Assembly: GCA_026707405.1 (NCBI GenBank)
Contig: JAPOWW010000007.1
Coordinates: 19,749-83,748, forward strand
DNA length: 64,000 nucleotides
DNA from: Chloroflexota bacterium
GTDB taxonomy: Bacteria; Chloroflexota; UBA11872; VXNJ01
Reading direction: 5' to 3'
Shown here: in pieces, positions 24,907 through 37,892 of the stretch
Layout of the letters: every line of letters starts with the position of its first letter
How positions within the stretch are numbered: the stretch's first letter is position 1
Notes under the pieces: generated by a model
What the model was told of the DNA's origin: nothing
Databases searched by the model: none
Seen by the model: the letters and a program-made list of their open reading frames with translations, nothing else
Translations under genes and position numbers: made by a program

Positions 24907-24964
24907 AGCATTGGGACTTTACAATCCTCGCTGGGTCACCCCACGAAATCCAGAAAAGAGGCTA

Positions 24965-26881
24965 ATGGCAACGATTCAGGCAAGTCCCGATCTGGCCGCC
25001 GTCGACTTGCCTCGATTCACCGTCCAGCTTCCGGATATCGACTACTACCGATCCAACGTCGACTGCGCGGCTGCATGCCCCGTTCACACCGACGCGCGCG
25101 GCTATGTCACCGCCATCGAGCGCGGCGACTACGAAGAGGCGTGGTGGATAGCCAGGCAGCCGAACCCCTTCGCTTCTATATGCGGGTGGATCTGCGCGGC
25201 GCCGTGTGAGTCGGCCTGCCGGCGCGGCAGGATCGACGAGCCTATCGGCATAAGAGGGCTCAAGCGGTTCGCAAACCAAATGCACGGAGTGCTGCGGAAC
25301 CCGCTCGACCTCGGAAACGACCTCAAGACCCCGCAAAACTCAAAGACTGCGGGATCTATCTCCGCGATCCTGGAATACGCCCGCAAGTTCGCCGACGAGC
25401 GAAAGACCGGCGCCAGCGTTGCCATTGTCGGAGCCGGTCCCGCGGGACTAACCGCCGCGCACGACCTCTCGCTCATGGGGCATCGCAGCACGATATTCGA
25501 AGCGTCGTCCGCGCCCGGCGGCGCAATGTATCTGGCCGTGCCGGAACATCGCGTCGACCGGCAAATTGTGGCCGCCGAATGTCAGGCAATTCTGGAGATG
25601 CCCGGTGTCGATATTCACTACAAAACCAGGATCGGCGAGGACATCGGGCTGTCCGAGTTGCGCGCCCGCTTCGACGCGGTGGTGCTGACCACCGGACTAT
25701 GGAGGCTGGATCGACCGGCCATTCCGGGAGCGAATCTCGCTGGGGTGGTGGATACCACAAGCTTCGTCGCTGACGGCCTCATGGGAGAAAAACCGGCGGT
25801 CGGGGAACATGTCATCGTCATCGGTGACGACGATTCCGCTTTCGACGCCGCGCGCTCGGCTGTCCGCTTGCAGCTCGCGGCGGGCAAGACTATCGACGTA
25901 AAGCTATTCAGCGCCTCCACTACCAAGGCGACGCTCGGCGAGAACCAGCAGCGCGAAGCGGAGCTCGAAGGCATTTCGGTCTATACGGGCTGGGAGTTGG
26001 TGGAATGCCTCGGCAATGGCCACGCCCAATCCGTCAAGTGCAGACCGACGGTGCGCAACCCGGAAGGGATGGCTGACCTAGGTGTCGAGCGAGACCGAGT
26101 CCGCGGGACCTGGGAGGCCGAGCTGCCGGCCGATACCGTGATTCTCTCCAGCCTGCGAGGCGGAGATCTCGGCTACCTCGAAGGAATACCAGGCATCAAA
26201 GTGGATCAGGTCATCAAGGCTGACGCTTCGACCGGTAGAACCGGCGCAACCGGCCTTTACTCCGGTGGCGATGTCGTTTCCGGTCCGGCGACGATAATCG
26301 ACGCCGTCCAGGCCGGTCACGTGATCGCCCGAAGCGTGGAAGAGGACTTTCAGGAACAAAAGCTCGTTGTCAGACGCAGCGGCCGGATGACCGTGATCCC
26401 TCCCAGCGACTATCTCGTCGACGGATATCTGGACATTCCGCGGCAGACTCCTGACAGCCTGGAAACCTTCGAGCGAACGAGCGACACGCCCGTTGAGCTC
26501 GCATATGACGAGCGACAGGCGCGCACCGAAGCGGCGCGCTGCCTCAAATGCAACGTCAACACAGTATTTAGCTCCGACATGTGCATACTCTGCAATCTGT
26601 GCGTCGACGTTTGTCCCTACGATTGCCTTCAGCTGGTCGGGCTGGACAGCCTCAAAGGTCACGGGCTGGACTCGGCAGTTAAGGGGCGCTATGGTCTCGG
26701 ACTAGACTTCTTCCGTGCGAATTCCTACGACATGCAGGAAGTTGGAACCGCCCTCATGAAAGACGATGACGTTTGCACGAGATGCGGTCTTTGTGTGGAA
26801 CGCTGTCCGACCGACGTAATAACGATGGAGTGGTTCTCGTTTGACGAAAGCCTTGAGCTTGCGGGTGCGGGCGCAATCTAG
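24965..26881 (+). CDS. Fe-S flavoprotein (GltD-like with two C-terminal 4Fe-4S sites) of an unusual bc-type locus
   Basis: This 638-residue protein has an N-terminal Cys-rich region (CAAACPVHTDARGYV, then SICGWICAAPCESACRRGR) like the Fer4_20 domain of glutamate synthase small subunit. A FAD site follows (VAIVGAGPAGLTAAHDL, residues about 155-172). The second dinucleotide site is degenerate: VIVIGDDDSAFDAAR, where GGG(D/N) is usual. The C-terminus carries two [4Fe-4S] motifs, CILCNLCVDVCPYDC and CTRCGLCVERCPTDV. It would pass electrons between ferredoxin-like clusters and FAD. The degenerate second site casts doubt on NAD(P)H use. The 26-base spacing to cytochrome b indicates one operon. ATG 24965 with AGAGG upstream is preferred over 24911. 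Confidence 0.87.
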   Translation: MATIQASPDLAAVDLPRFTVQLPDIDYYRSNVDCAAACPVHTDARGYVTAIERGDYEEAWWIARQPNPFASICGWICAAPCESACRRGRIDEPIGIRGLKRFANQMHGVLRNPLDLGNDLKTPQNSKTAGSISAILEYARKFADERKTGASVAIVGAGPAGLTAAHDLSLMGHRSTIFEASSAPGGAMYLAVPEHRVDRQIVAAECQAILEMPGVDIHYKTRIGEDIGLSELRARFDAVVLTTGLWRLDRPAIPGANLAGVVDTTSFVADGLMGEKPAVGEHVIVIGDDDSAFDAARSAVRLQLAAGKTIDVKLFSASTTKATLGENQQREAELEGISVYTGWELVECLGNGHAQSVKCRPTVRNPEGMADLGVERDRVRGTWEAELPADTVILSSLRGGDLGYLEGIPGIKVDQVIKADASTGRTGATGLYSGGDVVSGPATIIDAVQAGHVIARSVEEDFQEQKLVVRRSGRMTVIPPSDYLVDGYLDIPRQTPDSLETFERTSDTPVELAYDERQARTEAARCLKCNVNTVFSSDMCILCNLCVDVCPYDCLQLVGLDSLKGHGLDSAVKGRYGLGLDFFRANSYDMQEVGTALMKDDDVCTRCGLCVERCPTDVITMEWFSFDESLELAGAGAI

Positions 26882-26907: not shown

Positions 26908-28509
26908 TTGATCGCGTTGCGTAACAGACTGCTCAGATCAATCGGGAGACCCGACGATCCGGAAGACGTGACCGGCCAGGCGCGGGCCGCCGTTGGCAAC
27001 TTCCTCCTGCAAATCCATTCGGTCAAGGTCAGCCGCAATAGCCTCACCTGGAAAAGCCCGTATGGGCTCGGGCTGATCGCCCTCTACATGTTCATAATCC
27101 ATTTCGTTTCTGGTCTTGCTCTGACGTTCTATTACGTGCCCAGCGTCGAGCGGGCCTACTTGAGCATGATCGAACTGCAGTCGGAGGTCACCTTCGGCGC
27201 GTTCATCACGAGCCTGCACAGATGGTCGGCGCACGGAATGATCATCTTCCTAGTCCTCCACATGCTTAGAGTCTTCTATACCGGCGGTTACAAGCCTCCG
27301 CGGCAGCTTAGCTGGATTATTGGAGTGCTGTTGCTGATCGTGACCGGTAAGCTGGCGTTCTCAGGCTATTTGTTGCCCTGGGACCAGCAGGCGCTCTGGT
27401 CAGTGCAAGTCGCGAGTGAGGTCATCCGATCCGGACCCATCTTCGGAGAGCATGTGCAGCGGGTCGTCTTCGGCGGACCTGACATCGGTCAGGCGACGTT
27501 GACGCGCTTCTACACCATGCACATGACGGTGCTGCCGCTACTCTCGCTGGGACTCATAGGGGCCTATATTTGGAGCCTGCGTCAGCACGGAGGCTTCGCC
27601 GCCCCCGCTGACGAAAAGCTGAACGGAGCTCAGACGGCGACCAGCCGCTACCAGACCGGGGGCGGTCTCCAGGGCGAGGGCGCATTCCCGCGAAACTCCG
27701 ACAAGACCTATGCGCTGGTGGGTTTGGTAAGAGGTTCGTCCGCCGCGGCCGGTTCCGGTCCGCGCGGCACGGTCATGGCCTGGCCTGCCGTATTCCTGCT
27801 TGAACTGGCGGTCCTGGCCGGCGTGGTACTCGTAATGGCCGCGATAAGCGCGTTCGCCCACGCGCCGCTCGGACCGCACGCCGACCCGGCGATTCCCCGG
27901 AATCCCGCCCTAATGCCGTGGTTCCTGTCAAGCATTCAGGAACTCACGCTCCACATGCATCCCGTCTTCGGCGGAATCATGATTCCCACCCTGTTTGTCA
28001 CCGGACTGTTCGCAATCCCGTTTATCGACTGGGACCGTTCCGGCTCCGGAGAATGGTTCGGCGGCAGAAGGGGAGTCATAGCCGCATTCGGGTCCGCCCT
28101 GGCGGCCGGTTTTATCTGGATAGTCCTCGAGTGGCTGGACCTGGGACGTAACCTCGCCTTCCGGTTGAAAGAGGCCCTCGACCTGACCAAGCTCACCGGC
28201 GGAGAAACGCCCAAGTCATGGCCTGAGTCATTCGGTTTCTTCGGACTCTACGATCTGACCGAATGGTCCTCGTTCCTTTGGGCCGGACTGATCCCGTTTC
28301 TCATCGTCATGACCCTGCTGCTCGTCATTGGAGCCGCCGCAAAGTTCGTGTTCGGCGGCAATCGCCGCGAGGTCATGATCTCGATATTTACGGCCACGAT
28401 CGTGTCGATAATGGTGCTGACGTTTATAGGGTCGGCGATGCGCGGGACCGACATGAATCTATATGCCCCTTGGGACCGGCCGAACATAATTGAACTTGAC
28501 AGGCAGTAG
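26908..28509 (+). CDS. Cytochrome b (b and subunit-IV parts fused), missing one heme ligand
   Basis: This 533-residue membrane protein has about 8-10 transmembrane segments and fuses the b6-like core with a subunit-IV-like part. Helix B carries H104 and H118 (spacing 14) in SLHRWSAHGMIIFLVLHML. GYLLPWDQ is present at 153-160. Helix D has H205 in RFYTMHMTVLPLL, but Ala219 and Tyr220 occupy the places of the fourth heme His. The n-side heme bH should therefore lack a ligand. The PEWY-type quinol motif reads MPWFL at 336-340, with Phe for Tyr. It would take quinol electrons. TTG 26908 is the only reasonable start. It is flanked by the flavoprotein and a Rieske-fold protein. Confidence 0.85.
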   Translation: MIALRNRLLRSIGRPDDPEDVTGQARAAVGNFLLQIHSVKVSRNSLTWKSPYGLGLIALYMFIIHFVSGLALTFYYVPSVERAYLSMIELQSEVTFGAFITSLHRWSAHGMIIFLVLHMLRVFYTGGYKPPRQLSWIIGVLLLIVTGKLAFSGYLLPWDQQALWSVQVASEVIRSGPIFGEHVQRVVFGGPDIGQATLTRFYTMHMTVLPLLSLGLIGAYIWSLRQHGGFAAPADEKLNGAQTATSRYQTGGGLQGEGAFPRNSDKTYALVGLVRGSSAAAGSGPRGTVMAWPAVFLLELAVLAGVVLVMAAISAFAHAPLGPHADPAIPRNPALMPWFLSSIQELTLHMHPVFGGIMIPTLFVTGLFAIPFIDWDRSGSGEWFGGRRGVIAAFGSALAAGFIWIVLEWLDLGRNLAFRLKEALDLTKLTGGETPKSWPESFGFFGLYDLTEWSSFLWAGLIPFLIVMTLLLVIGAAAKFVFGGNRREVMISIFTATIVSIMVLTFIGSAMRGTDMNLYAPWDRPNIIELDRQ

Positions 28510-28569: not shown

Positions 28570-29067
28570 GTGCTGAACGTCGAGCGGGCTGCTGGTACCG
28601 ATCCCATCCAGCGGAACCTCTTCCGGCTCCTGTTCGTTTCGGTAGCCGGGGTGCTGGCTCCAGTTACGATCGCCGTTGCGGCAATCGCCTTCCTCTGGAC
28701 GCCGCAGACGTCGGTAGGCAGCGTCAACGCCGGTCCGGTCGAGGACTACAACCTCCTCGATATGGTCCTGTTCGAGGAAGGCGAGTTTTACCTAACCCGG
28801 CTGCCCGACAGATTCCTAGCAATCAACCAGCGGTCCACGCACATGCGCTGCAAGGTCGCCTGGGATGCCCCATCCCGACAGTTCATAAGCCCTTGCGATG
28901 GGTCCGTATTCGACGACAAGGGAGAGGTCGTTCGCGGCCCTGCGCCCAGACCTCTCGGGACCCATGCGATCACCATCGAGAACGGCGAGCTGATTATCGA
29001 AGTCGGAGACGAAAACGTGCGCAAGCGTGACAAGTACGATCCTGGGCAGGGCGCTGAAATTGGTTAG
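28570..29067 (+). CDS. Rieske-fold protein lacking most [2Fe-2S] ligands
   Basis: This 165-residue protein has one N-terminal membrane helix (about residues 18-43) and a Rieske domain. Box I, normally CTHLGC, reads STHMRC (89-94). Box II, normally CPCHGS, reads SPCDGS (107-112). Two ligand Cys have become Ser89 and Ser107 and one ligand His is Asp110; only His91 remains. The disulfide pair Cys94 and Cys109 is kept, as is the GPAPRPLG tail, so the fold was retained under selection. The protein should not hold a normal Rieske cluster. It could be structural, a redox disulfide or a different metal site. GTG 28570 has GGAG upstream. The 60-base gap to cytochrome b and overlap with cytochrome c mark one operon. 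Confidence 0.88.
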   Translation: MLNVERAAGTDPIQRNLFRLLFVSVAGVLAPVTIAVAAIAFLWTPQTSVGSVNAGPVEDYNLLDMVLFEEGEFYLTRLPDRFLAINQRSTHMRCKVAWDAPSRQFISPCDGSVFDDKGEVVRGPAPRPLGTHAITIENGELIIEVGDENVRKRDKYDPGQGAEIG

Positions 29068-29563
29068 GCTGAGTACATCCGAGTTTCTAATGGGAGCGGT
29101 GGCGATCCTCGGCGTCGCCGTTGTCGGGGTGGTGATCGCGGCGTGGACTATGGAGCCGTCCCGCATGGCCGGCGCCCAGACCGATTTTCAACCCGTCCGC
29201 CAGCAAATGATGCAGCGGATGGTGGCAGGAACCGGAGCCGTGGCCGAGGTCCCGCAGGCGACGCCTGCGCCGGTCGCCAGTACCGGCGAGTTCGCCGAAG
29301 CTCACGCGCTGTTCCGGTCCAAGGGTTGCATCGCCTGCCATATAGCCCCAGGAATCCCGGAAGCGGTCGGGACCATTGGGCCTGACCTGAATGGTCTCGC
29401 TTCGCGAGCGATGATCGCCGACGTAATGGAGCTCACCGAAGAAAACCTCGCCAAGTGGATCCACGATCCCGTGGGCATGAAGCCCGATACCGTGATGCTC
29501 AACGTCGGCCTCAGCGACCCCGAGGTCGAAACGCTCGTTACCTGGCTACTGTCGCTCAAATAG
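29027..29563 (+). CDS. Membrane-anchored monoheme cytochrome c
   Basis: This 178-residue protein has an N-terminal membrane anchor (about residues 20-42), a Pro/Ala-rich linker, then one c-type heme motif KGCIACH (Cys101, Cys104, His105) and a Met ligand in MKPDTVM (Met157). It is class I cytochrome c on the outer face of the membrane and would accept electrons from the complex. Its first possible start (GTG 29027) overlaps the Rieske-fold gene by 41 bases; TTG 29060 would give an 8-base overlap and is equally plausible. Either way it is coupled to the gene before it. Confidence 0.9.
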   Translation: MTSTILGRALKLVRLSTSEFLMGAVAILGVAVVGVVIAAWTMEPSRMAGAQTDFQPVRQQMMQRMVAGTGAVAEVPQATPAPVASTGEFAEAHALFRSKGCIACHIAPGIPEAVGTIGPDLNGLASRAMIADVMELTEENLAKWIHDPVGMKPDTVMLNVGLSDPEVETLVTWLLSLK

Positions 29564-31312: not shown

Positions 31313-32065
31313 ATGAATCTCAATGGCGCGGGAGTGCTCGTTACCGGCGCGAGCTCGGGCATCGGACTGGCGACGGCAAGAGCTCTGTTCAGCAAGGGCG
31401 CGCGGCTGGCCGTGGCCGGCCGCGACCGCCAGCGTCTGGCAGATCTGGCTGCGGAGGTCGGCGGTACGGCCATAGTCGCGGATCTCACGGCTGACGAGTC
31501 AATAACGAGGTGCGTCGACGAAGCGGCGAACCATCTCGGAGCAATCGACATTCTGGTGAACAACGCCGGAGTTGGCTGGACAGGAGCCTTCGCGCACATG
31601 CCGGCGATAGATATCGACCATCTCATCCGACTCAACCTGCGTGCCGCGATACTGCTGGCCCGTGAGCTTACGCCTCCGATGATCGCCCGCGGCCGGGGGC
31701 ACATAGTCAACGTGGCGTCGATTGCCGGCCACTTGGGTGTCGGCGGCGAAGCCGTCTATTCCGCCACCAAGGCGGCGCTCATCAACTTCAGCGAAGGCCT
31801 CCGGCAAGAAGTCGCGGACTCCGGCGTCGGGGTTGCGGTTGTCAGTCCGGGAGTGGTCGCCACAGAGTTCTTCAACCGGCACGGTTCCCCTTATTTGAGG
31901 TCATGGCCGCGCCCCATTACGCCCGAAGCGGTGGCCGATGTTATCGTCCGATCTATCGAAACCAACCGCCCGGAGGCCATAGTGCCGAAATGGCTCGGCC
32001 TCGTGGCAAGGCTCAAAGGTAGCTTGCCGGGCGTGTATCGAGCTTTGAACCGCCGGTTTGGCTAG
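31313..32065 (+). CDS. Short-chain dehydrogenase/reductase
   Basis: This 250-residue classical SDR has TGASSGIGLA (cofactor), NNAGVGW, a Ser in VASIAGH and the catalytic YSATKAAL. A C-terminal extension includes KWLGLVARLKGSLPG. The substrate is unknown. It is convergent with hpnH: its TAG stop and the hpnH stop share the bases CTAG (32062-32065). Start ATG 31313 has GAGAAG upstream. Confidence 0.9.
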   Translation: MNLNGAGVLVTGASSGIGLATARALFSKGARLAVAGRDRQRLADLAAEVGGTAIVADLTADESITRCVDEAANHLGAIDILVNNAGVGWTGAFAHMPAIDIDHLIRLNLRAAILLARELTPPMIARGRGHIVNVASIAGHLGVGGEAVYSATKAALINFSEGLRQEVADSGVGVAVVSPGVVATEFFNRHGSPYLRSWPRPITPEAVADVIVRSIETNRPEAIVPKWLGLVARLKGSLPGVYRALNRRFG

Positions 32066-33075
32066 CCGGCGATGCTCTCGAACATCGCTCTGACGGAGTG
32101 CCGAAGCGAGCTTGTCGTTTCCAGCACGGCCGTGGGTTCGTATCCGCAGTGAGCCATGCAGTTGTCGCAGCGGGGATCTCGCCCGCGACCGTATTTTTCC
32201 CAATCGGTCGTTTCGACCAGCTCCTGGTAAGTCTCGACATAGCCGTCAGCCATCAGGTAGCAGGGACGCTGCCAGCCGAAAATCGAGTAGCTGGGAATCC
32301 CCCACGCCGTGCACTGGAAGTCAATTTTCCCTTCGAGAAAATCGAGGAACAGCGGCGAGTGATTGAGCCTCCACTGGCGGCGCTTGCCGTCCGCGAACGC
32401 TTCGCTAAACAGCTTGCGCGCCTGCTCCACCGGTAGAAAGTGCTCCTGATCAGGCGCTTTCCAGTAAGCGTAGCCCGGAGAAATCATCATCGCGTCAACT
32501 TCAAGCTCATTGTTCAGGAAGTCCATCACCGCACGGACGTCTTTCACGGAGTCGTGCGTGAAGATGGTCGTGTTGGTGGTTACGCGGAATCCTTTTTCCT
32601 TCGCCATCTTGATCGCGTCCACCGCAACGTCGAATACTCCCTCCCTGTCCACCGACTGGTCGTGGCGCTCCCGGAGACCGTCAACGTGCACCGCCCACGC
32701 AAAGTAAGGCGACGGTTCGAACAGGTCTATCTTCCTCTTCATCAAGAGTGCGTTCGTGCACAGGTATACGAATTTCTTTCTCGCAATCAGCTCACGCGCT
32801 ATCAGGTGGATCTCCGGGTGAATTAGCGGTTCCCCGCCTGCGATCGAAACCATGGGAGCGCCGCTCTCCTCGATCGCCGCCACGGCAGCCTCCACGGTCA
32901 TCCGCTTCTTAAGGATTTCGACGGGATACTGGATCTTGCCGCAGCCCGTACATGCCAGATTGCAGGCGAACAAAGGCTCTAGCTCGACGATGAGCGGATA
33001 TTTTTCGCGGCCTGCTAGCTTCTGTCTGAGCAGATAGGTAGCGAGCCTCGCTGTCTGCCTTAAAGGTACGCCCAT
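32062..33075 (-). CDS. hpnH: Adenosyl-hopene transferase HpnH (radical SAM)
   Basis: This protein of about 337 residues carries the radical-SAM cluster motif ACNLACTGCGK (CxxxCxxC), SIAGGEPLIHPE and a C-terminal Cys-rich SPASM-like tail (CDNCMAHCGY). It joins 5'-deoxyadenosine to diploptene to make adenosylhopane, the first step in side-chain extension. The start MGVPLRQ at 33075 matches the usual HpnH N-terminus and has GGGAAG upstream. A longer frame to 33120 has no ribosome binding site. It ends the hopanoid operon. Confidence 0.92.
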   Translation of the reverse strand: MGVPLRQTARLATYLLRQKLAGREKYPLIVELEPLFACNLACTGCGKIQYPVEILKKRMTVEAAVAAIEESGAPMVSIAGGEPLIHPEIHLIARELIARKKFVYLCTNALLMKRKIDLFEPSPYFAWAVHVDGLRERHDQSVDREGVFDVAVDAIKMAKEKGFRVTTNTTIFTHDSVKDVRAVMDFLNNELEVDAMMISPGYAYWKAPDQEHFLPVEQARKLFSEAFADGKRRQWRLNHSPLFLDFLEGKIDFQCTAWGIPSYSIFGWQRPCYLMADGYVETYQELVETTDWEKYGRGRDPRCDNCMAHCGYEPTAVLETTSSLRHSVRAMFESIAG

Positions 33076-33171
33076 TAACTTCCCTGCAACATCAAACCAG
33101 CGGTGACTGCTCACGCTCATAGTAATGATTCAGGGCCAAACAGTCGAACCTGCCGAACTTGCTTTGATGCT

Positions 33172-33780
33172 TCAAGCCCCGACCCGATCTCGCTGGTGCA
33201 ATGCCCAATTCCTCAACGCCGGTCCTAAGCGTGTCAGTGTTCGAAGCCCCTTCACGCCGCCGCCTATTGTTTTGATAGGATCAAATAGTTCCCTGCCCGG
33301 CGTATCCACCACCACCCTCACTACGGCCAAGGGTCGACACCGTGCCGTCCGCGCAAGCCAGGCCGATTCCATGTCCACCGCCATCCCACCCGCGCGGTAC
33401 AGCGTTTTGCGCTCGCCACCCCGCACCAGGTGCTCCGACGAAACGATTAGCCCCGACCTGACCCTGATTTCATCACCCCGCAGTGCCAATACTAGGGATT
33501 CCGATTCGAGCGTCAGACAAGAGCCGTCCGGCCCCCGCACTCCGCTCGCGACGACAAGATCACCCGGTTCTAGAGACGGATCCAGCGCCCCGCAAAACCC
33601 GGCAATTACGAGAACCTTTGGATCAATTCTATCGACCATTGACAGCGCTTCTATGGATTTCTCCCTGCCAAGTCCGGTCTTGAGCACGGTAACGCCGGGA
33701 AGTCCTCGTCGCATGGCCCACGCCTCGATGGCCAGCGGCGTGAGAACCAGAAGCCCCTCCGGAACCGAGCGGCTAACCAT
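33172..33780 (-). CDS. hpnG: Hopanoid-associated nucleosidase HpnG
   Basis: This 202-residue phosphorylase/nucleosidase-fold protein has LTPLAIEAWAMRRGLPG, GFCGALDPSLEPGDLVV and the MAVDMESAWLA active-site stretch. HpnG cleaves adenine from adenosylhopane and works right after HpnH. Its place between shc and hpnH fits. It is somewhat short for the family, and the N-terminus is compact. Start ATG 33780, 21 bases after shc. Confidence 0.9.
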   Translation of the reverse strand: MVSRSVPEGLLVLTPLAIEAWAMRRGLPGVTVLKTGLGREKSIEALSMVDRIDPKVLVIAGFCGALDPSLEPGDLVVASGVRGPDGSCLTLESESLVLALRGDEIRVRSGLIVSSEHLVRGGERKTLYRAGGMAVDMESAWLARTARCRPLAVVRVVVDTPGRELFDPIKTIGGGVKGLRTLTRLGPALRNWALHQRDRVGA

Positions 33781-33801
33781 CAGCCGGCTTTCGTTGCGAT
33801 T

Positions 33802-35682
33802 TCAGCCCTGAACGCTGACGAACCGGCCAAGGGCCATCAACGGAAATACGATTCGATAGAGGTGATATTTAACGTAGAAATCGCCGGGAAAGCCTGTTCC
33901 CGTGTACCACGGTTCATCCCACCCGCCGTCCGGTCGCTGGGTCTCGATCAGAAAGCGTGCGCCGCGAGCCACCGAATAGCCCCGCTCGCCAGCCGCCAGC
34001 AGTGCTACCAGCGCCCAGGCAGTCTGGGAAGCTGTGCTATCCCCTTTACCGACCCATGAACGATCTCGATACGAACGCAGGTCCTCGCCCCAACCGCCAT
34101 CGGCGTTCTGATGCCGCTGCAGCCAGTGAACCGCGCGCCGGATCGCCGGATCCCTGGTCGGCACGTCAGCGGCCACCAAAGCCGTCACAACCGCTCCGGT
34201 GCCATAGACGTGATTGGACCCCCAGCGTCCAAACCAGGAACCGTCGGGTTCCTGCTCGCTCCTTAGCCACTCAATTCCATGTTGCGCCGCATACTCGTCC
34301 TGCCGCCCCACGGCGGCCAGCATTTCGATCGCGTGCGCGGTGACGTCGGCGCTTGGTGGGTCTACCACTGCTCCAAAATCGCAGAACGGCAGCTGGGCAG
34401 CCACGTCTCTATCGTTGTCGGCGTCGAATGCGGCCCAGCCTCCTTCGAGCGACTGCATGCCGATGGTCCATCTGATGCCCCGCTCAATTGCCGGTTCGAT
34501 CCCAAGTACGGAATCGGCACTTACTTGCTTTAGAGCCAGCACTACTTCGGCGGTATCGTCCACGTCGGGATAGTTGACGTTTGCGAACTCGAATGCCCAG
34601 CCGCCCGGTTCGAGGTCTGGCCGTTTAATCTGCCAGTCGCCGGGCACGCGCACCTCGTTCTTCACCAGCCAGTCCGCCCCTCTGTGGATCGAGCTATGGC
34701 CGCCGTCGACACCAGCGTCGGAGAGAGCGATCATAGCCAGAGCCGTATCCCATACCGGCGATTGACACGCCTCGAGCCTCCTCGCGTCACCCTCCCAGAT
34801 AGTGAAGCGGTCGATCCCTTCGAGACCCGCAGCCATAACTGGGTGGTCGAGGCCGTAGCCGCGAAGCGACAACGCGATCAACGAGTAAACCCACGGCGGC
34901 TGTATACCGCCCCACGACCCATCAGCCTCCTGCCGTCTGACTATCCATTGCTCGGCCCTCTCAAGCGCCAGTTGCCGCAACGGTCTGAGAGCACGGTTTT
35001 CGTAGAGCTGAAGACCTTGATCCAGGAGTTGAAACGCGCCGAGACCGGACGCCAAAGGCGGACGCGGCGGATCGGGCGCTCCCGAGCGAATCTCGTCCAG
35101 ATCGAACTCGATGGGGCGGACCGGGCGGTACGCCGATACTACGCTCAAGGCCACGATGGTCTGTCTGGCCCAGCACGCGAAATCGTAGATATTCAGAGGC
35201 GCCCACTTCGGCAGGAAGATCTGCTCCGGGGGCAGCACGGGCACTCGTTCCCAGGACCAGAGGCCGAACAATGCCAGCCATATGCGCGTGAACACGCGAG
35301 TGCGTTCAACGCCGCCGGCATCCAGAATGTAAGCTGCCGCCTTCTTCATGTGGTCCGCGTCGGGACTATCGCCCGCGAGCTTCAGAGCCGTATAGGCCTC
35401 GGTCGTCGTCGAGTGCTCCGGAGGTCCGCCGTAGAAGTTCGCCCACGTTCCGTCAACTCGCTGCTTCGCGCGAATCCAGTTGGCCGTCGCCTGAGTCTCA
35501 CGGCGACCGCGGATACCCAGGAACTCGCGAAGCAGCAAGTCCTCCGCCTCGATCGAGACGTTGGTTTCCAGCTCGCCCTTCCAGTAGCCGTCCGAATGCT
35601 GAAGTCCCAGGAGGTAGTCGCGAGCCCTCTCCATCGCTTCGGCGGCGGTCTGAATCAGGTTAGGGGTTGATTTGGTAATCAT
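33802..35682 (-). CDS. shc: Squalene-hopene cyclase
   Basis: This 626-residue monotopic membrane enzyme cyclises squalene to hopene/hopanol. The protonating motif DVDDTA lies at residues 373-378 (Asp373, Asp375, Asp376). Several QW repeats are visible, such as QRPDGGWDEPW and QNADGGWGED near the C-terminus. Length matches bacterial cyclases. It follows hpnE by 15 bases and precedes hpnG by 21, so the cyclase is cotranscribed with squalene synthesis and side-chain genes. Confidence 0.97.
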   Translation of the reverse strand: MITKSTPNLIQTAAEAMERARDYLLGLQHSDGYWKGELETNVSIEAEDLLLREFLGIRGRRETQATANWIRAKQRVDGTWANFYGGPPEHSTTTEAYTALKLAGDSPDADHMKKAAAYILDAGGVERTRVFTRIWLALFGLWSWERVPVLPPEQIFLPKWAPLNIYDFACWARQTIVALSVVSAYRPVRPIEFDLDEIRSGAPDPPRPPLASGLGAFQLLDQGLQLYENRALRPLRQLALERAEQWIVRRQEADGSWGGIQPPWVYSLIALSLRGYGLDHPVMAAGLEGIDRFTIWEGDARRLEACQSPVWDTALAMIALSDAGVDGGHSSIHRGADWLVKNEVRVPGDWQIKRPDLEPGGWAFEFANVNYPDVDDTAEVVLALKQVSADSVLGIEPAIERGIRWTIGMQSLEGGWAAFDADNDRDVAAQLPFCDFGAVVDPPSADVTAHAIEMLAAVGRQDEYAAQHGIEWLRSEQEPDGSWFGRWGSNHVYGTGAVVTALVAADVPTRDPAIRRAVHWLQRHQNADGGWGEDLRSYRDRSWVGKGDSTASQTAWALVALLAAGERGYSVARGARFLIETQRPDGGWDEPWYTGTGFPGDFYVKYHLYRIVFPLMALGRFVSVQG

Positions 35683-35697
35683 CCGGAACGTAAGTGG

Positions 35698-37053
35698 TCA
35701 TGCATATATCGGCGTATCTCGGCTCGGAAGATTGAGACTCCTCAGCGCTTCACGAGCTGCGGAGAGTCCGCTCCGTACCGCCCCTTCCATGGTTGCCGGC
35801 CAGCCGGTGTCGGTCCAGGCTCCGGCCAAGAACAGACCGGGCATTCGAGTGACAGGACCCGGCCTCAGAGCGGCGCTTCCCGGCGATTGCAGAAACGTAG
35901 CGGCGTACTCCCGAGTCACGAAGAAAGATTCTACAGAAGCCCCGCGTGCTTTTGGAAACACCGAGGCCAGCGCATCCAGGAACTTCCTCTTCAGCGCTGA
36001 ATTGCTCTCGCCCACGTATTCGTCGGCGGCAGAGAGCGAAACGGCGAGATATTGTCCGCGCTCACATCCCGCGATATTTGTCCTGTCGAACACCCACTGC
36101 ACGGGTCCGTCGATACCTGCCGCGTGTGGCCAGTCCATGACCTTCCTGTCGTAAATCACGTGTAGATTCACGATAGGAGAAGTTCCCAGACGCTGAAATT
36201 GCGGCGGATCGCCGACCGCTTCCCGCGGCACGATCTGCGCGGCCGATTCGTGTGGAACGGCAACCACGACCGCGTCCGCGCTAAAGGAATCCCCGCCATG
36301 AACGGCGACTTGAAAACCGCCCGAACTGGCGCCTATCGATCTGACCCGCACGCCCTTTAGCACCCGCGAGCCGCGCTTGTGTAGCAGTTCTTCTGCCGGA
36401 TCGGCGTGGAGTTCCGACAGCGGCACTGCTGAGTAGCCCAGGTCCGCGGCGCTCCCGTCTTCGAGCAGTCCTGTCTGAAAGACCTTGGCCGCGAGCGTCA
36501 GCGAGGCGCGTGAGCTGGGTACGTTCAGGGTTGGAAGGACGATCAGGTCCCAAAACGAGTCTATCGAACGCTCGGACTGCCCATGCTGCCGCAGCCAGTC
36601 GTGAAAGGAATGCTCGTCCTGCTCCGAGTCCGAGAGATCGACCGCGGCGAGCTTTCTCGCTGCAAAGGCGACGCGAAGACGCTCGACGAGTTTCAGGAAC
36701 TTGAATCGCGCTAGCGATGGTCCGAGCTGGAGGGGGGCCGGTAATCGACTGCTCTTCAACCAGGCAGTCTCCCCCGTGGGACCCACCACTGGGATTTCCA
36801 ATCTCGACTGGAGCGTCACCTTGTCGGCAACTCCCACCCGTTCCAGGAACCACATATACGCTTCACAGCAGCGCAGGAACACGTGCTGCCCGTTGTCGAC
36901 CATCAGCCCGTCGCGCTCGAACGAGTACGTAGCGCCGCCCAAATGCCGCTTGCCTTCCAGCAGAGTCACCCGTGCTCCTCCGTCGACGCACGCGATGGCC
37001 GCGGTCAGTCCGGCAAGTCCTCCACCCGCAACGACCACATGGGGCCGGCTCAT
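35698..37053 (-). CDS. hpnE: Hydroxysqualene dehydroxylase HpnE
   Basis: This flavoprotein of about 451 residues is related to phytoene desaturases. VVVAGGGLAGLTAAIA is the FAD fingerprint, DNGQHVFLRCCEAY follows, and FLAGAWTDTGWPATMEGA closes the FAD domain. HpnE reduces hydroxysqualene to squalene, the third step after HpnD and HpnC. The ATG at 37053 overlaps the hpnD stop (ATGA). A longer frame to 37251 runs inside hpnD and is rejected. Confidence 0.94.
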   Translation of the reverse strand: MSRPHVVVAGGGLAGLTAAIACVDGGARVTLLEGKRHLGGATYSFERDGLMVDNGQHVFLRCCEAYMWFLERVGVADKVTLQSRLEIPVVGPTGETAWLKSSRLPAPLQLGPSLARFKFLKLVERLRVAFAARKLAAVDLSDSEQDEHSFHDWLRQHGQSERSIDSFWDLIVLPTLNVPSSRASLTLAAKVFQTGLLEDGSAADLGYSAVPLSELHADPAEELLHKRGSRVLKGVRVRSIGASSGGFQVAVHGGDSFSADAVVVAVPHESAAQIVPREAVGDPPQFQRLGTSPIVNLHVIYDRKVMDWPHAAGIDGPVQWVFDRTNIAGCERGQYLAVSLSAADEYVGESNSALKRKFLDALASVFPKARGASVESFFVTREYAATFLQSPGSAALRPGPVTRMPGLFLAGAWTDTGWPATMEGAVRSGLSAAREALRSLNLPSRDTPIYA

Positions 37054-37892
37054 GCCATCCCGCCGGCAATCGACCGGACGGCTACCCAGGCTTTCTCCCA
37101 AACCGGCAAAGATATCCGTCGGTGCAACACCTGTTCCGGATTCTTCGCTATTCGGCGAAGTATTCGGCTGTAGATACCCGCCATCGCAGCGGCGCACGCG
37201 TAACTGCGCCCCTCCAGCAACGGCAAGAGACTCAGCCCACGCGCAAACCACTCCCTGGCGCGCTCCGCCTCGAACGCGATGGCGTCGACCAGCCCGTCGT
37301 GGTTCGCCTTATCAAGATCTACCTCGGTTCCAAACATGTCTAGGTCTTCAGCCGGAATATAGACCCGGCCCCGCTCGTAGTCCTCCCTAACGTCTCGCAG
37401 AATGTTCGTAATCTGCAAAGCCACTCCCAGGGCCTCAGCTCTCGACCCGGCAAGCTCGGGATACGTCGAACCGAAAATCGCGAGCGACAGCCGTCCGATC
37501 GAGCCGGCGACCCTCTTGCAGTACAAGTGCAGATCATTAAAGGTCTGGTACGTCACCTCGCGCACATCCATTTCCACGCCATCGACTAGGTCGTGAAAAG
37601 CGCTGATCTGTATCGGGAACCGGCTCGACGTATCGGTCAGGGCCACGGTGATTGGATCGTCCGTGATTAAGCTCATCCGGTCCAGGCGTTCACGCACGTC
37701 ATCCAAACCCGATAGCTTTTCGCTCGCGGGCAGATCCCCGTCGCCTATGTCATCCACGCGGCGCGCAAGCGCATAGACCGCGCTGAGCGCGCGGCGCTTT
37801 TCCAGGGGCAGCAGGCGGATCCCGTAGAAGAAGTTGGCGGCCTCCCGCCGCGTCACGTCCTGGCAGTAGTCATACGCGAGATCGACTTGCAT
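37050..37892 (-). CDS. hpnD: Presqualene diphosphate synthase HpnD
   Basis: This 280-residue trans-isoprenyl diphosphate synthase-type protein has the first Asp-rich motif RRVDDIGD and the second one in NILRDVREDYERGRVYIP. HpnD condenses two farnesyl diphosphates to presqualene diphosphate. It sits between hpnC (4-base gap) and hpnE (ATGA overlap), which separates it from other squalene/phytoene synthases. Confidence 0.94.
   Translation of the reverse strand: MQVDLAYDYCQDVTRREAANFFYGIRLLPLEKRRALSAVYALARRVDDIGDGDLPASEKLSGLDDVRERLDRMSLITDDPITVALTDTSSRFPIQISAFHDLVDGVEMDVREVTYQTFNDLHLYCKRVAGSIGRLSLAIFGSTYPELAGSRAEALGVALQITNILRDVREDYERGRVYIPAEDLDMFGTEVDLDKANHDGLVDAIAFEAERAREWFARGLSLLPLLEGRSYACAAAMAGIYSRILRRIAKNPEQVLHRRISLPVWEKAWVAVRSIAGGMA

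Follow-up and report, generated by a model that had tools for sequence, protein, structure and literature searches.

The window, the whole stretch of 64,000 nucleotides from a Chloroflexota bacterium that was analysed, carries an operon for a Rieske/cytochrome b complex. A GltD-like flavoprotein is followed by a cytochrome b, a Rieske subunit and a cytochrome c, and the features of these genes are collected in Table 1. The cytochrome b frame encodes 533 residues from a TTG start. Further in-frame starts lie downstream of this codon, and the exact N-terminus is uncertain. In the operon's cytochrome c, a linker of about 45 residues precedes the heme domain. An earlier note on this DNA had described a cytochrome b with H104, H118 and H205, the pair Ala219/Tyr220 and the motif MPWF. 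Checking of the reading frame returned the same coordinates and residues. For comparison we used a second species of the same genus (G001), two relatives of the same family f1 (G021 and G023) and further named relatives, which are a sample of at least 80 loci among the matches listed.

Table 1. Features of the Rieske/cytochrome b operon in the window, with the basis of each assignment.
Feature	Position	Strand	Basis
GltD-like FAD/multi-[4Fe-4S] flavoprotein	24911..26881	+	Pfam Fer4_20, Pyr_redox_2, Fer4
Altered NAD(P)-binding loop, GDDDSA replacing GGGNVA	25823..25840	+	Alignment of 30 sequences
Cytochrome b, b6-like and subunit-IV-like halves fused	26908..28509	+	Pfam PF00033, AlphaFold2 model
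Cytochrome b H65 at place of b6 Gln47	27100-27102		Conserved position changed
Cytochrome b T101 at place of b6 Arg83	27208-27210		Arg in 84/86 relatives
His104, p-side heme ligand (b6 His86)	27217..27219	+	H in 88/88; ungapped b6 alignment
His118, remaining n-side heme ligand (b6 His100)	27259..27261	+	H in 88/88; b6 alignment
His205, p-side heme ligand (b6 His187)	27520..27522	+	H in 88/88; b6 alignment
Tyr220 at n-side heme ligand place (b6 His202)	27565..27567	+	H in 86/86 relatives
His227, new in genus	27586..27588	+	Asp in 85/86 relatives
Qo-type motif MPWF	27913..27924	+	VPWF in G021, G023; APWY in most others
Rieske subunit without cluster ligands	28570..29067	+	Alignment with 82 relatives; model pLDDT 92
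Rieske Gln-Arg replacing twin-arginine, residues 14-15	28609-28614	+	Arg at 14 in 81/82 relatives
Rieske Ser89, ligand Cys lost	28834..28836	+	Alignment
Rieske SPCD (residues 107-110) versus CPCH in relatives; disulfide Cys109 kept	28888..28899	+	Alignment
Membrane-anchored monoheme cytochrome c, CIACH intact	29027..29563	+	Pfam PF00034; dN/dS 0.068

The GltD-like flavoprotein with its Fe-S clusters directly adjoins the cytochrome b, an arrangement of the anammox type. In Kuenenia stuttgartiensis, the Rieske/cytochrome b complexes Kuste4569-4574 and Kustd1480-1485 each include a putative NAD(P) oxidoreductase (PMC12954380). Like the window, these complexes combine b6-like and subunit-IV-like parts, a Rieske protein, a c-type cytochrome and a cytoplasmic NAD(P)-oxidoreductase subunit. 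In contrast to the window, where the cluster ligands are lost, their Rieske clusters are high-potential (+303/+335 mV, PMC12954380). Their cytochrome c is multiheme and their b hemes have been modelled, whereas the window encodes a monoheme cytochrome c and has lost one b-heme ligand. Loss of the NAD(P) loop and fusion of the b6 and subunit IV parts further set the window apart. Among the matches listed, about half of 80 named loci have a GltD-like gene, and such loci span Chloroflexota, Acidobacteriota, Verrucomicrobiota, Kiritimatiellota, Chlamydiota, Planctomycetota and others. GltD-like operons of Chloroflexota, Acidobacteriota, Verrucomicrobiota and Chlamydiota (L052 Desulfolinea, L081, L043) hold the gene set of the window, and several Chloroflexota loci also share its gene order. 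Unlike the window, they keep CxH...CxxH and the n-side His, and most have a GGGNVA-like loop. Every Rieske protein found at the wider-family loci, again among the matches listed, has an intact CxH...CxxH. The complex is a widespread, known kind of Rieske/cytochrome b complex with an NAD(P)-oxidoreductase arm, and the window holds a derived form of it. Cytochrome b6f and bc1 share the cytochrome b and Rieske folds with the window, but both of their b hemes are bis-His ligated and their Rieske protein carries a [2Fe-2S] cluster. For the ExtP/ExtQ cytochrome of selenite/tellurite reduction operons, the NCBIfam scores stayed below the curated cut-offs, at 220 against 290 (ExtP) and 31 against 150 (ExtQ).

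In the Rieske alignment, the window has S89, H91, S107 and D110 at the places where all 82 relatives have C, H, C and H. The Cys2His2 ligand set of a [2Fe-2S] cluster is reduced by C89S, C107S and H110D to H91, and the Rieske protein of the second species has the same S, H, S, D pattern. With three of four ligands gone, a normal Rieske-type [2Fe-2S] cluster cannot be expected in this subunit, and the high-potential branch would therefore be closed. The earlier note had called the Rieske partner cluster-less and the high-potential branch broken. Both claims stand on the Rieske side, where the ligand loss is real, derived and conserved.

The structural disulfide of the Rieske protein (C94 and C109) is retained. 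The protein scored below every curated profile cut-off, yet it gave a confident model (pLDDT 92). Best fold matches of this model were Kuste4569 (9rk4, Z 18.0, 1.7 Å over 109 residues) and Kustd1480 (9rk3, Z 16.8), followed by arsenite oxidase Rieske subunits at Z 12.8. Fold, disulfide and conserved head suggest that the Rieske protein still packs in the complex. Residue 14 is Gln in the window and the second species and Arg in 81 of the 82 relatives, which breaks the twin-arginine motif used for Tat export of folded cofactor proteins. This loss is consistent with Tat export of a folded cofactor protein being no longer needed, as would be expected if the Rieske protein gets no cluster. A search of open-licence papers for described cluster-less Rieske subunits found nothing to the point, and an earlier description is possible.

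The AlphaFold2 model of the cytochrome b (pLDDT 79, pTM 0.82) has the expected fold. It matched the bc1 cytochrome b 9gy6_B with Z 29.8 and an rmsd of 4.6 over 342 residues, and helix D spans residues 195-227. Compared with b6 structures by phmmer, window residues 52-226 aligned with b6 34-208 (E 5e-45), and positions 104, 118, 205 and 220 correspond to b6 86, 100, 187 and 202. Since this alignment is gapless, Y220 lies exactly at the place of the n-side heme ligand, b6 His202. The bis-His ligation of the p-side heme b is kept by H104 and H205. For the n-side heme b, H118 faces a Tyr at position 220 and the bis-His pair is lost. Position 220 is His in all 86 aligned relatives, and Tyr occurs in the window and the second species only. 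A helix-D DNA pattern with Tyr at the ligand place matched these same two and no others in 400 genomes of the phylum. With the ligand place left open, 76 of 77 recognisable segments in 201 genomes encoded His, and the single Tyr was that of the window. The alignment thus bears out the missing fourth heme histidine of the earlier note.

Tyrosine can ligate heme iron in other proteins, and His to Tyr changes in haemoglobin give Tyr-ligated iron. We know of no natural case of a Tyr-ligated heme in a cytochrome b bundle. By analogy, a His/Tyr-ligated n-side heme with altered potential is possible. The n-side heme could have been kept through His118/Tyr220 or be held further to the n-side by His227, the low-potential centre being tuned to the Fe-S arm and only the Rieske branch being lost. 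His227 was found in the window and the second species only, seven residues past the lost His. It lies two helix turns beyond position 220, on the same face and at the n-side end of helix D. Y220 and H227 come as a pair, which both species retain. Against re-ligation, R101, N135 and R223, at otherwise near-invariant sites, are lost too, and some of them were probably near the hemes. Thr101 stands at the place of b6 Arg83, which we take to contact the p-side heme propionate.

The same His position was altered in Rhodobacter capsulatus (H212 there, equivalent to 220). H212N is a heme bH knock-out, and H212K restores a functional low-spin heme through Lys, which speaks for re-ligation; tyrosine is not mentioned in that paper (PMC4807273). 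These are laboratory mutants of an otherwise intact Q-cycle enzyme, whereas the window combines a natural, conserved Tyr with cluster loss. On balance, we regard a retained n-side heme with loss of the Rieske branch alone as rather doubtful. The earlier claim of a broken n-side heme is likely to be right but less than certain, given that Tyr might ligate the iron. A covalent heme c_n was rejected, as the position of b6 Cys35 is Gly53 in the window.

The earlier note had also counted the PWF quinol motif as part of the anomaly. This did not hold, because VPWF is present in the intact relatives G021 and G023. The Qo motif of the wider family is APWY, and 'PEWY' is the wrong reference for MPWF. 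At the N-terminus, relatives have LHLHP, of which the window keeps the second His (H37), the first being replaced by Q35. His43, in the N-terminal part of the cytochrome b Kuste4571, was proposed to hold an interface heme, and its match to these residues is ambiguous.

The flavoprotein has Fer4_20 at its N-terminus and ferredoxin domains at its C-terminus, and is expected on the n-side. Its closest NCBIfam model is PRK12771, with a score below the cut-off. The cysteines of the Fe-S cluster motifs and the FAD motifs are conserved with the relatives. Among 28 relatives, the window and the second species, the GGGNVA loop was replaced by GDDDSA in the latter two, by GGAQDA in G021 and by GGCNRS in G023; most relatives keep a GGGNVA-like NAD(P) loop. 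The loop is altered in all four members of the family seen, and this change precedes the Rieske loss. The altered loop suggests a changed cytoplasmic partner, which, as a guess, may therefore be a ferredoxin-like protein instead of NAD(P)H.

The cytochrome c, whose gene is the most constrained of the four (dN/dS 0.068), has an intact heme motif and its long linker. It might dock at the quinol site and run the high-potential branch itself, with the Rieske fold as a spacer and quinol oxidation independent of the Rieske protein. However, the same tether stands beside an intact Rieske protein in G021 and G023 and is therefore no adaptation to cluster loss. We know of no precedent for bifurcation without a Rieske cluster, and consider this explanation improbable. 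As a separate observation, the cytochrome c of family f1 (L031-L034) has one heme, and class outgroups (L035-L038) have two CxxCH domains at the same position.

The operon is present in four genomes of family f1, which form one clade (100/99) in the cytochrome b tree with a long stem to the window's genus (0.87). Judged by its named members, the tree places them probably in Chloroflexota. In G021 and G023 it encodes the flavoprotein, a b6-like and a subunit-IV-like protein, the Rieske subunit and the cytochrome c in the order of the window. All heme and cluster ligands are intact there, and the cytochrome b halves are in separate frames. VPWF and the altered NAD(P) loop are already found in these two genomes. 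The window's genus then adds the fusion, the cluster-ligand loss, H220Y, D227H and the Gln-Arg change. Thus the PWF motif and the altered loop are family traits, and the cofactor losses are genus traits.

Selection was evaluated between the window and the second species, where dS is about 0.4-0.5. Nei-Gojobori dN/dS was 0.084 for the Rieske subunit, 0.077 and 0.155 for the cytochrome b parts and 0.131 for the flavoprotein. For the Rieske gene, the Fisher p was below 1e-17. In the Rieske head we counted 19 synonymous codon differences and two residue changes (S102T, V113I), and D110 is kept by GAT in one species and GAC in the other. The losses are common to the two species and, unless they happened in parallel, predate whatever now distinguishes the genes of one from those of the other. 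All four operon genes have been under purifying selection since the losses and are not decaying. Gene decay or a sequence artefact would account for the loss of invariant residues and for the long stem branch of the cytochrome b. Both were rejected as scarcely credible, because the same state is found in two genomes, with no stops or frameshifts and with low dN/dS.

Redundancy with a second, intact copy was likewise rejected. In targeted searches, the window's own genome had a single cytochrome b, and its four other Rieske-domain genes looked ferredoxin- or oxygenase-like, without a bc-type motif. It also has a complete operon for alternative complex III, with succinate dehydrogenase genes immediately behind it (C3:96000-115000), and an aa3 oxidase whose subunit II has a cytochrome c domain. 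Gene identities in these two sets beyond NrfD and COX1 are a reading of the sequence. A close homologue of ActC is present throughout the order, also in family f2 members that yielded no cytochrome b. It had no match in the two class outgroups tested or in the second species (84 % complete). The alternative complex III gives quinol:cytochrome c oxidation another provider.

We propose, with a probability of about one half, that the window's complex is a derived Rieske/cytochrome b form which abandoned bifurcation and was repurposed as a non-bifurcating electron conduit with putative substrates. The Rieske protein would now be a structural subunit. The n-side heme would be missing, or be His/Tyr-ligated with a changed potential. 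By sequence, no damage is seen in the Fe-S/FAD arm, p-side heme or cytochrome c, and we therefore infer a single electron path, running in either direction, that would join the cytoplasmic Fe-S flavoprotein to the quinone pool, to the tethered cytochrome c or to both. The alternative complex III would take care of ordinary quinol:cytochrome c oxidation. The complex probably no longer runs a classic Q-cycle. A weakness of the conduit is that linear flow from n- to p-side dissipates the membrane potential, so that the benefit to the cell is not obvious. In addition, a His/Tyr-ligated heme, or one relocated to H227 or H65, could keep the b-heme chain complete. More specifically, we put forward tentatively that a Q-cycle enzyme was converted to a one-path conduit that keeps the full architecture, with no Rieske cluster and a His/Tyr-ligated or relocated n-side heme. 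The interpretation in the earlier note was right in the cofactor-ligand losses and wrong on PWF, and it had missed the NAD(P)-linked type, the alternative complex III and the purifying selection.

The family lost its features stepwise, from the NAD(P) loop, the Qo Tyr (to Phe) and one N-terminal His to the cluster and the heme ligand. Such a course would also fit a scaffold or regulatory remnant, which assembles without transmembrane electron flow and anchors the flavoprotein or cytochrome c to the membrane. A pure scaffold, however, would have no need of Fe-S cysteine motifs, p-side heme ligands or a heme c motif, all of which are conserved here. We therefore judge a scaffold to be quite improbable and retain the electron conduit as the preferred reading.

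A Rieske cluster and a pair of bis-His b hemes count as hallmarks of Q-cycle enzymes. To our knowledge, no complete Rieske/cytochrome b operon under selection was known before without the cluster ligands and the n-side heme ligand. A lineage that has both losses and still keeps the genes under strong selection offers a natural experiment on what the rest of such a complex can do when it does not bifurcate. The case is also relevant to the NAD(P)H-linked function proposed for anammox-type complexes, because changes have hit the high-potential branch and the NAD(P) loop but spared the Fe-S/FAD arm, p-side heme and cytochrome c.

Elsewhere in the window, positions 31313-37251 hold genes read as SDR, radical SAM, nucleosidase-like, squalene-hopene cyclase-like and squalene-associated FAD dehydrogenase-like, which are likely a hopanoid or terpenoid set.
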